22,676 bases of DNA, from positions 1 through 22,676 of the IMG/VR virus record IMGVR_UViG_3300037119_001982; one strand, given 5' to 3'. The notes under the pieces are model-generated. The model searched no databases. It was not told the origin of the DNA and saw only the letters and a list, made by a program, of their open reading frames with translations. Source of the DNA: a virus. Positions 5,482 through 7,892 of the stretch are shown in pieces (within the stretch, counting starts at the first letter, position 1; each line of letters begins with the position of its first letter). The position numbers were made by a program, and so were the translations under genes.

Positions 5482-5940
5482 ATGTTCGTAGAGCACAAGG
5501 AAGCAGGCGAGCTACAGCCCACCAGGGAAAACAGCGAAGCAACGTACTGCCCGCATGGCTACGACGAATGTTGGCGGGGCTGCGTGTATCCGGGCCGCTG
5601 TGGGCGCTTCGAAGGGCTGGACGAGGCGAGCAAACTGCTGCTGAAGGCGGCGGATCTGATCGAGGATCACGGATTTGTTCAGAATCGAATCGGCCGCGGC
5701 GAGGGGGATGGTTTCTGCGTAGCTCATGCGATGGCGCGGGCATTTGGTGGCGATGACCTCTACGAGAGCCACGCTTACAAGCGTCTCCGCCGCAGTTTGG
5801 GTATGGGCCCCTACGAGAGCCACGCTTACAAGCGTCTGCACCGCAGTTTGGGTATGGGCCCGAGCATTTGGAACGACGAGCCCGGCCGCACCAAGGAAGA
5901 AGTCGTCGCCAAACTGCGCGCCGTGGCTCTCGGTGGTTAG
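5482..5940 (+). CDS. DUF6197-like protein with internal tandem duplication
   Basis: The 152-residue protein starts at ATG 5482, with AGGAG at 5471-5475. Residues 22-43 are Cys-rich (YCPHGYDECWRGCVYPGRC), possibly metal-binding. From residue 49 the sequence follows the DUF6197 pattern as I remember it: a helix ASKLLLKAADLIEDHG, then a GFCVAHAMARA segment, and near the end WNDEPGRTKEEVVAKLRAVA. DUF6197 is a family of unknown function found in phages and actinobacteria. Between these parts a 17-residue unit, YESHAYKRL(R/H)RSLGMGP, is present twice (94-110, 111-127), encoded by a 51-bp tandem duplication. Normal members should carry it once. It directly precedes the DpdA-like gene but a functional link is not shown. 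Confidence 0.7.
   Translation: MFVEHKEAGELQPTRENSEATYCPHGYDECWRGCVYPGRCGRFEGLDEASKLLLKAADLIEDHGFVQNRIGRGEGDGFCVAHAMARAFGGDDLYESHAYKRLRRSLGMGPYESHAYKRLHRSLGMGPSIWNDEPGRTKEEVVAKLRAVALGG
5760..5861 (+). repeat. 51-bp in-frame tandem duplication (two units)
   Basis: Unit 1 is 5760-5810 and unit 2 is 5811-5861. They match at 49 of 51 positions; the two differences (CCG versus GCA) change a single codon pair so that Arg becomes His. The length is a multiple of three, so the reading frame of the DUF6197-like gene is kept. The near identity suggests a recent duplication. Confidence 0.9.
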
Positions 5941-5961: not shown

Positions 5962-6561
5962 GTGATCGTGCTCCTAGACACCGGACAGGATTTAGCGACG
6001 TGCCAGCAGGAACTCGGCTGCGAGGTAGGTCAACTGCTGACACCGCTGACCAGATACACGCTGCGCGAGCCAAGCCGCCAGTGGGCAATCGACAACGGTG
6101 CGTTTTCGGCATTCGAGGAGAAGGCATTCCTGTCCCTGTTGCAGCGCGAGGAGCACCACAAAGCGAATTGCATCTTCGTCACCGTGCCAGATGTCGTCGG
6201 ATCAGCTCGTCGCACGCTTGAGGTCTTTGCCCACTGGAAGGGGCGGCTCGCATCGTGGCCTCTAGCCGTCGCCTGCCAGGACGGACAGGAGCACCTGCCG
6301 ATCCCGTGGGACGACATCGCGGCGGTGTTCATTGGCGGCTCAACGAACTGGAAATTGTCCGACCACGCGGCGCAGTGCATCAAGGCGGCTAAGGCACTCG
6401 GGAAGTGGGCGCACGTCGGGAGGGTCAACGACCCGGCCCGCTTCGAGCACTTCGAGAAACTCGGCGCGGACTCAATCGACGGCAGCGGGATCGCCCGCTA
6501 CACCCACATGCGCGATGCCATCTCCAAGCGAGACAACCAGGAGAAACTCTTTGCTAGTTAG
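5962..6561 (+). CDS. dpdA: DpdA-like deazaguanine DNA transglycosylase
   Basis: This 199-residue protein of the tRNA-guanine transglycosylase fold is of the short phage type. DpdA enzymes exchange guanine in DNA for a 7-deazaguanine base. Visible motifs in order are WAIDNGAF (41-48, equivalent to DSGGF of bacterial TGT, with D44 as the base-recognition or catalytic Asp), VPDVVG (75-80), VFIGGSTNWKLS (122-133), HVGRVN (151-156) and GADSIDGS (168-175, matching the region of the TGT nucleophile Asp). The Cys/His zinc site and tRNA-binding C-terminal part of tRNA enzymes are absent, as in phage DpdA. The start is GTG 5962 with no clear ribosome-binding site. The next genes, a QueF-like protein and a YhhQ-type transporter, strongly support a deazaguanine role. 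Subfamily not decided. Confidence 0.8.
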   Translation: MIVLLDTGQDLATCQQELGCEVGQLLTPLTRYTLREPSRQWAIDNGAFSAFEEKAFLSLLQREEHHKANCIFVTVPDVVGSARRTLEVFAHWKGRLASWPLAVACQDGQEHLPIPWDDIAAVFIGGSTNWKLSDHAAQCIKAAKALGKWAHVGRVNDPARFEHFEKLGADSIDGSGIARYTHMRDAISKRDNQEKLFAS

Positions 6562-6796
6562 GCACTACCTAACAATCACCGCTACATGCCCCGTGGACCG
6601 CAAGCCTGACAACTACGCGGCGGTGATTGAGTGCGGCTACATGGTCAAGGTAGAAGCAATCCTCGCGGCCGTGGAGAGCCTGCGCTCGCGCCGCATCTTT
6701 CAAGAGGAATTGACGCAGGAGCTCGCCCGCGTGCTAGGAGCGAAGGTCACTACATCTGGCTATCACTCAGGAGTAAAAACAGTATGCGAATGCTGA
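6551..6796 (+). CDS. Miniature QueF-like T-fold protein
   Basis: This 81-residue protein sits between the transglycosylase and the transporter. I chose TTG 6551 as start because AGGAG (6539-6543) lies seven bases before it; GTG 6593 would remove the first motif. The layout is one tunnelling-fold unit: strands HYLTITATCPVD and NYAAVIECGYMVKVE, a helical part ESLRSRRIFQEELTQELA, then strands VTTSGYHSG and VKTVCEC. The stretch CPVDRKPD (C13 to D20) matches the QueF active-site pattern CPxTGQPD, with Cys and Asp at the same spacing; FQEE corresponds to FHED. QueF reduces preQ0 to preQ1; QueF-like archaeal enzymes act on the same nitrile. With half the usual length it may lack reductase activity. 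GTP cyclohydrolase-like origin is the alternative. Confidence 0.6.
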   Translation: MLVRHYLTITATCPVDRKPDNYAAVIECGYMVKVEAILAAVESLRSRRIFQEELTQELARVLGAKVTTSGYHSGVKTVCEC

Positions 6797-7385: not shown

Positions 7386-7892
7386 ATGCACATGAGCGAA
7401 CAAGAGTCCTTCCTTCCGGTCGTCGAGAACATCAAGGGCACCAAGTTTGCCGATGGTGCTCCTGACGGGAAGCACTATTGGCTGACGCCTCCGGAACTGT
7501 GGCAGCAGTTGAACATGGAGTTCAGCTTCGACTTCGACCCGTGCCCCTTCCCGCTCCCCGAGGGCTTCGATGGCCTGACGTGCGAGTGGGGCAAGAGCAG
7601 CTATGTGAACCCGCCCTTCGGCTCCGTGCTGCACAAGGGCCGCAAGAAAGGGCCGACAGCGTGGGCTAGGAAGGCGCTGGAGGAATCCCGCAAAGGGAAG
7701 CGCGTGGTCCTTGTGTACCCGATTGACAAGTGGATCCTGATGCTCCTCGCCGCCGGGGCGAAGGTCAGGAACTTGGGCGACGTGAAGTGGCTGGCAACCG
7801 AGGACCGCAGCCAAGGGGTCGGAACTGGTCGGCACGTCGCGGCTTTCATACTTGAATGCACCCCTGCCACACACGTACCGGAGAAATCATGA
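7386..7892 (+). CDS. dam: Phage Dam-type DNA N6-adenine methyltransferase
   Basis: This 168-residue protein follows the pattern of the phage DNA N-6-adenine-methyltransferase family (Pfam Dam). WLTPPELW lies at 32-39, FDFDPCP at 48-54, LTCEWGKSSYVNPPFGS at 64-80 with the catalytic NPPF (75-78), a variant of DPPY, and a VVLVYPIDKW strand near 107-116. The enzyme transfers a methyl group from S-adenosylmethionine to adenine N6, typically to evade host restriction. It begins at ATG 7386 (or ATG 7392), without a clear ribosome-binding site. The stop overlaps the next start as ATGA. Placed after the deazaguanine genes it makes this part of the operon a DNA-modification island. Confidence 0.85.
   Translation: MHMSEQESFLPVVENIKGTKFADGAPDGKHYWLTPPELWQQLNMEFSFDFDPCPFPLPEGFDGLTCEWGKSSYVNPPFGSVLHKGRKKGPTAWARKALEESRKGKRVVLVYPIDKWILMLLAAGAKVRNLGDVKWLATEDRSQGVGTGRHVAAFILECTPATHVPEKS

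Follow-up and report, generated by a model that had tools for sequence, protein, structure and literature searches.

An 81-residue viral protein is identified here, from its modelled structure and an independent sequence profile, as a complete T-fold unit of the QueF-Like type and not as half of one. Its gene lies on a 22.7-kb viral contig (22,676 nucleotides, the whole of which was analysed and is called the window below), in an operon of three overlapping plus-strand genes that also includes a DpdA-like gene and a Vut/YhhQ gene (Table 1). In our judgement there is an even chance that the protein is a small QueF/QueF-Like-branch enzyme and acts together with the DpdA-like protein in 7-deazaguanine modification of DNA: Cys13 would capture the nitrile of preQ0, which would then be converted without NADPH, likeliest to the amidine (archaeosine) in subfamily A, to which the window protein belongs. 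What is new here is that comparison of its relatives ties the family, phrog_37496, to DpdA and splits it into two subfamilies. DpdA-carrying phages without preQ0 synthesis genes would gain a candidate tailoring enzyme, and the family would give an idea of the minimum size possible for a QueF-type catalyst.

Table 1. Features of the three-gene operon in the window.
Feature	Position	Strand	Basis
DpdA-like (guanine transglycosylase-type) gene, 199 aa	5962-6561	+	phrog_15826, alignment A3, AlphaFold2 barrel
AGGAG ribosome-binding site	6539-6543	+	direct reading; ends 7 nt before TTG 6551
QueF-Like-type T-fold protein, 81 aa, phrog_37496 family, subfamily A	6551-6796	+	TTG start
CPVDRKPD: Cys13 (predicted thioimide cysteine), Asp20 (subfamily A only)	6587-6610	+	alignment, n=52
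FQEE: Gln51 and invariant Glu52	6698-6709	+	alignment, n=52
GYHSGVK: invariant His72	6758-6778	+	alignment, n=52
Vut/YhhQ-family (PF02592) queuosine-precursor transporter, 159 aa	6784-7263	+	Pfam

The first-pass annotation of this DNA had read an 81-residue frame from a TTG codon, with a Cys and an Asp spaced seven residues apart in CPVDRKPD and with FQEE further on, and all of these are present. The 5' end of the gene overlaps the 3' end of the DpdA-like gene by 11 nt, and its last 13 nt are shared with the Vut gene, which begins at ATG 6784. Comparison of the window protein with a relative of about 79% identity in locus L015 (same contig as L003) gave a dN of 0.163 and a dS of 1.008, which shows that the frame encodes a selected protein; the TTG start and the upstream AGGAG are both conserved in that relative. 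Judged by these rates, the frame is a real gene under purifying selection. A start at GTG 6593 was rejected because it would remove the Cys-Pro pair, present without exception in the 52 non-redundant relatives; many relatives begin at an ATG well 5' of this pair, and homologues that consistently start at the GTG and lack CPxxxxPD, a case once raised against the longer frame, are not what the family contains. No preQ1 riboswitch or other Rfam element was detected in the window at the gathering score, and promoters and terminators near the operon were no more numerous than in shuffled sequences. Just 3' of the operon, at 7386-7892 on the plus strand, lies a possible second DNA-modification gene, which weakly matches the phage Dam-type N6-adenine methyltransferase family PF05869 (E 0.00047, below the curated cut-off). 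The ORF at 5482-5940 (DUF6197) contains a 51-bp tandem duplication at 5760-5861 (2.0 copies, 96% match), by which 17 residues of its protein are repeated in frame.

The AlphaFold2 model of the 81-residue protein, built on alignment A7, has a mean pLDDT of 96.5 and the order E-E-H-H-E-E, that is, a single beta-beta-alpha-alpha-beta-beta T-fold unit; this is the strand and helix order expected by the first-pass annotation, and the model is a T-fold rather than some other fold. When the PDB was searched with Foldseek, the best rows were archaeal QueF-Like (archaeosine synthase) of Pyrobaculum calidifontis (5k0p/5jyx, E about 1e-6), and VIA placed the same entries first (Z 13.7 and 13.4, rmsd 1.1 Å, 81/81 residues, 28% identity), above FolE (GTP cyclohydrolase I; Z 11.9) and unimodular bacterial QueF (4f8b; Z 10.1), so that the suggested comparison with these three families came out in favour of QueF-Like. 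In a search of the PDB with a 51-row sequence profile, QueF-Like was the sole significant sequence (E 0.00067; the next had 0.52), and the alignment was in register with its Cys21 and Asp28. Among viral structure models, the best match was an unnamed protein of 83 residues, and the third and fourth had 109 and 111 residues, the fourth being named archaeosine synthase. It is the structure matches together with the independent profile that point to a complete QueF-Like-type unit, and the earlier description of the protein as half-size had to be given up, since the solved archaeal enzyme is itself only some 100 residues long and the model spans a full unit of it.

Relatives were gathered from profile searches of IMG/VR, from one Roseateles prophage and from the annotated genomes of three phages (RHph_X2_30, Epa33 and Mae-JY30). 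All three genomes list the homologue as a hypothetical protein, a point to set against the earlier remark that ATG-based gene calling misses the gene. These three phages were reached via other family members and not via the window protein, for which a tblastn search of 50,697 phage records returned chance-level matches only (E 0.6-9 among the matches listed); the proteins of L006 and L028 had no match among the phage records, and the other relatives come from viral contigs. The genome_contigs scan yielded one locus, the Roseateles prophage, and a search of 399 genomes of the order of Roseateles yielded one match, in the same genome. The locus survey examined 79 loci, with RHph_X2_30 included and Epa33, Mae-JY30, L001 (no match to the gene) and loci that repeated a contig already present left out; 76 of these carry the gene, and 52 remained in the non-redundant set after removal of rows shorter than 65 residues (the truncated L076) and rows above about 92% identity. 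Loci L023 and L025 are one prophage, and both are among the 76 and one among the 52. Every member of alignment A7 (51/51) matched the phrog_37496 profile, to which no function is assigned. By Pfam, no family recurs among the members (13 weak matches, each to one member) and none matched the window protein; the QueF model PF14489 had no match at E ≤ 1 in any of 54 records, and the same model was positive in 11 of 14 control genomes. The family would serve to mark 7-deazaguanine phages that are overlooked when Pfam QueF is used. A description of this DpdA-linked family was not found in the literature searched, which was a limited collection.

Cys13, Pro14, Glu52 and His72 are invariant in all 52 non-redundant members, each of which has Asp or Asn as residue 16. 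Two subfamilies are separated by a branch with 100/100 support, in a tree of 83 columns that resolves little else. In subfamily A (n=20, the window included), Asp20 and Gln51 are each found in 20 of 20 members, and in subfamily B (n=32) residue 20 is Ile or Val throughout and residue 51 is His in 27 members and Gln in five. Six members of subfamily A have the Asp one residue later in the raw string and in the same alignment column, and a single member of subfamily B (1/32) has an Asp seven or eight residues past the Cys in the raw string. The Cys/Asp pair, earlier taken as the signature, therefore belongs to subfamily A and not to the family, and the triad common to all members is, by this alignment, Cys13, Glu52 and His72. 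Overall, the T-fold, the kinship to QueF-Like and the link to DpdA have survived from the earlier interpretation, and the half protein and the Cys/Asp family signature have not. Glu52, from its position in the aligned motif, is what we take to be the base-binding Glu of T-folds. An ESK-type stretch (E-S/L-K) is the NADPH motif of QueF; no such motif is present in the window protein, in agreement with the earlier remark that the NADPH-binding part is absent, and the columns of the ESKSLK stretch of Dp-1 QueF read V-E-x-I in nearly all 52 members.

Archaeal QueF-Like resembles the window protein in being one short T-fold unit without an ESK-type motif and in having Cys21 at the place of Cys13 and, for subfamily A only, Asp28 at the place of Asp20. 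Unlike it, the window protein is about 20 residues shorter, viral and partnered with a DNA-type transglycosylase. The His-Glu pair of QueF-Like (LHEE) is not kept, Glu52 being retained and Gln51 standing for the His in the window as in the rest of subfamily A, where the His is treated as QueF-Like-defining by an assumption from one sequence; in our reading of the alignment, invariant His72 falls on a Tyr of the P. calidifontis enzyme. These two exchanges indicate that the active site is not the same as that of QueF-Like. Bacterial QueF (4f8b; Dp-1 gp1) shares the T-fold core and the Cys-Asp spacing of seven and differs in its ESK-type motif, and hhalign gave a probability of 3.7 between the family and Dp-1 gp1. 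FolE also shares the core and gave weak HMM matches. The zinc site of FolE has a C-x-x-H motif, which is missing here, all 52 members having Asp or Asn at position 16, and a FolE function was rejected on this ground; the rest of FolE is absent as well. MMDA13 gp33, a 98-residue protein annotated as phage QueF-like, is another small T-fold candidate, which has CPVNHLPD and lies in a cluster with a DpdA gene, but it is very distant (profile E 0.0031, hhalign probability 60). At E ≤ 1 the family had no match in eight viral genomes associated with 7-deazaguanine in DNA, namely the Cellulophaga phages phiST and phiSM and six named in published work (Dp-1, HVTV-1, nt-1, 7-11, MED16 and CP220; PMC6884629, PMC8306585). 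It was reported that the MMDA13 phage encodes the whole preQ0 pathway (PMC7472734), that phages may carry QueF or QueF-L with DpdA, some of them with YhhQ (Hutinet et al., 2019; PMC6884629), and that dPreQ1 occurs in the DNA of Dp-1 and HVTV-1 (PMC6884629).

A DpdA-family profile matched 76 of the 76 loci that carry the T-fold gene, the profile having been seeded with 18 neighbours (16 from the 76 loci and two others), so that 60 loci were unseeded; among these, L023 is the same prophage as the seed locus L025. In the non-redundant set, the DpdA-like gene is on the same strand as the T-fold gene in 52 of 52 loci, with a median gap of 21 nt (60 nt or less in 39/52), upstream in 20 and downstream in 32. 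Among the sense-strand families within 3.5 kb, clustered by BLAST, the T-fold gene occurs in 52 loci, DpdA in 41 and 11 (its two sequence groups), Vut in 15 and every other family in at most eight. Because the T-fold relatives always lie beside a DpdA gene, whose product presumably replaces guanines in DNA by modified bases, the 81-residue protein probably determines which modified base the phage DNA carries. Subfamily A is paired with both DpdA groups (9 and 11 loci) and subfamily B with the first only, a distribution from which it is probable that partners have been exchanged.

The identity of the neighbour as DpdA rests on profile matches and invariant residues, the fold search alone being weak. 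The window DpdA-like protein matched only phrog_15826 (E 1.2e-36, function unassigned) and no Pfam family; among the 18 DpdA-like relatives of alignment A3, 10 match phrog_887, annotated as queuine tRNA-ribosyltransferase, and Asp44, Asp77, His151, Ser171 and Asp173 are invariant. Its AlphaFold2 model is a barrel for which the best VIA rows were mostly TGT (Z 12.7, in effect level with the 12.6 of pyruvate kinase), Foldseek ranked EAL and glycerophosphodiesterase barrels first, and the A3 profile search placed the DNA-guanine transglycosylase 7ui4 first at an E of 0.48. DpdA-like and Vut genes occur without a small T-fold gene in the flank at L011:5001-6127 and L012:5001-6145, so that cassettes of otherwise similar make-up can lack the T-fold gene; the DpdA-like gene of L009 likewise has no T-fold gene in its flank. 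In Synechococcus phage Yong-M4-211 (L001:6001-6618), a DpdA-like homologue of 68.8% DNA identity is annotated as hypothetical and is one gene away from an integrase gene. At L054:4249-4917, a stop codon divides the DpdA-like neighbour of the T-fold gene into two pieces that share a reading frame, which may reflect either a pseudogene or an error in sequencing.

The window Vut protein matched PF02592 above the curated cut-off (E 1.2e-11) and TIGR00697 below it (E 8.6e-8), and Vut was found in 14 of 51 records in addition to the window. QueC was above the cut-off in none of the 51 records and PTPS/QueD in one, many of the records being fragments (23 of 51 exceed 34 kb); neither was found in the window. 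The Roseateles genome with one prophage copy encodes QueC. Since QueC is missing from these records, QueD is nearly so, Vut lies nearby and a host has QueC, the predicted substrate is most simply preQ0 from the host or the medium. In E. coli, YhhQ is required for the salvage of preQ0 and preQ1 (PMC5372724).

In the mechanism that we infer, which covers the substrate, the covalent step, the product, the oligomer and the order relative to DpdA, preQ0 made by the host or imported by the Vut/YhhQ protein of the operon would enter the T-fold pocket, where Glu52 would hold its guanine-like edge and Cys13 would attack the nitrile to form a thioimide. As an NADPH site is lacking, this adduct would be resolved by a nucleophile other than hydride. 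In subfamily A, which keeps the Cys and Asp of QueF-Like, ammonia would be the likeliest nucleophile and the amidine of archaeosine the product, formed on the free base preQ0 or else after DpdA has inserted preQ0 into DNA. Amidine formation by subfamily A is our first choice by analogy, at about even odds. Against it stands Gln51 of the window protein, where both QueF-Like and QueF have His. Moreover, subfamily B has the same DpdA partner without the Asp, and nitrile chemistry may therefore not be the function shared by the whole family. We know of no phage with the T-fold gene whose DNA bases have been measured. In QueF-Like, the thioimide is formed between Cys21 and preQ0, an Asp acts as acid/base, and free ammonium yields archaeosine on preQ0-tRNA (PMC5485725); the Dp-1 protein is called QueF-L by homology and the DNA base of this phage is dPreQ1, not dG+ (PMC6884629).

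The alternatives are ranked in the order hydration, carrier role, decarboxylation and reduction. If water instead resolved the Cys13 thioimide, the protein would be a nitrile hydratase that forms 7-amido-7-deazaguanine (ADG), with which the fold, the Cys and the DpdA partner are equally compatible; a missing Asp or His could alter the nucleophile, and the origin of dADG in phages is called unexplained in two papers (PMC6884629, PMC8306585). The dADG phages 7-11, MED16 and CP220, however, have no T-fold gene (0/3 at E ≤ 1), and we consider hydration unlikely, though worth keeping in mind. Somewhat less likely again is a non-catalytic role, in which the protein would bind 7-deazaguanine, perhaps covalently, and deliver it to DpdA, or would be a DpdA subunit. 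The strict one-to-one linkage and the overlapping genes would suit such a carrier, as would the five of 32 subfamily B members that lack both the Asp and the His of QueF, but the invariant Cys13, Glu52 and His72 look catalytic, and the DpdA-like relatives of L009, L011 and L012 in the viral collection indicate that DpdA can manage alone.

Action on another substituent appears improbable, the example being DpdL, a 7-carboxy-7-deazaguanine decarboxylase reportedly named by Cui et al. in 2023. The single QueD among 51 records gives little sign of a phage-supplied carboxy-deazaguanine, and the Cellulophaga phages phiST and phiSM, which we take to be linked to dDG/dCDG, gave no match (0/2). Homology to DpdL, if true, would lower the novelty of the T-fold family. 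In favour of such a function are the loss in subfamily B of the Asp of nitrile enzymes and the versatility of T-folds (see also PMC5485725). A minimal preQ0 reductase that forms preQ1 is the reading in which we place least belief: QueF and QueF-Like have the fold and the Cys in common, and a T-fold protein takes part in dPreQ1 formation by phage Dp-1 (PMC6884629), but the V-E-x-I columns in place of ESKSLK and the failure of PF14489 in all 54 records argue against hydride chemistry.

Beyond the preferred amidine reading for subfamily A, we suggest, as a tentative and rather doubtful extension, that phrog_37496 is devoted to DNA hypermodification and that its 80-residue T-fold scaffold, in constant association with DpdA, has diverged into two chemistries (Cys/Asp/Gln/Glu/His in subfamily A; Cys/His/Glu/His without Asp in subfamily B). 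These would convert host-scavenged preQ0 into two different 7-deazaguanine end groups, of which one or both would be new to DNA. The modified base is directly testable in a cultured temperate phage, Pseudomonas phage Epa33 (a Hollowayvirus); the copy in Rhizobium phage RHph_X2_30 is likewise of the subfamily B type. At L093:7001-7971, Epa33 has its subfamily B-type T-fold gene and, after it, a gene of 726 bp, and the annotation of both is hypothetical.
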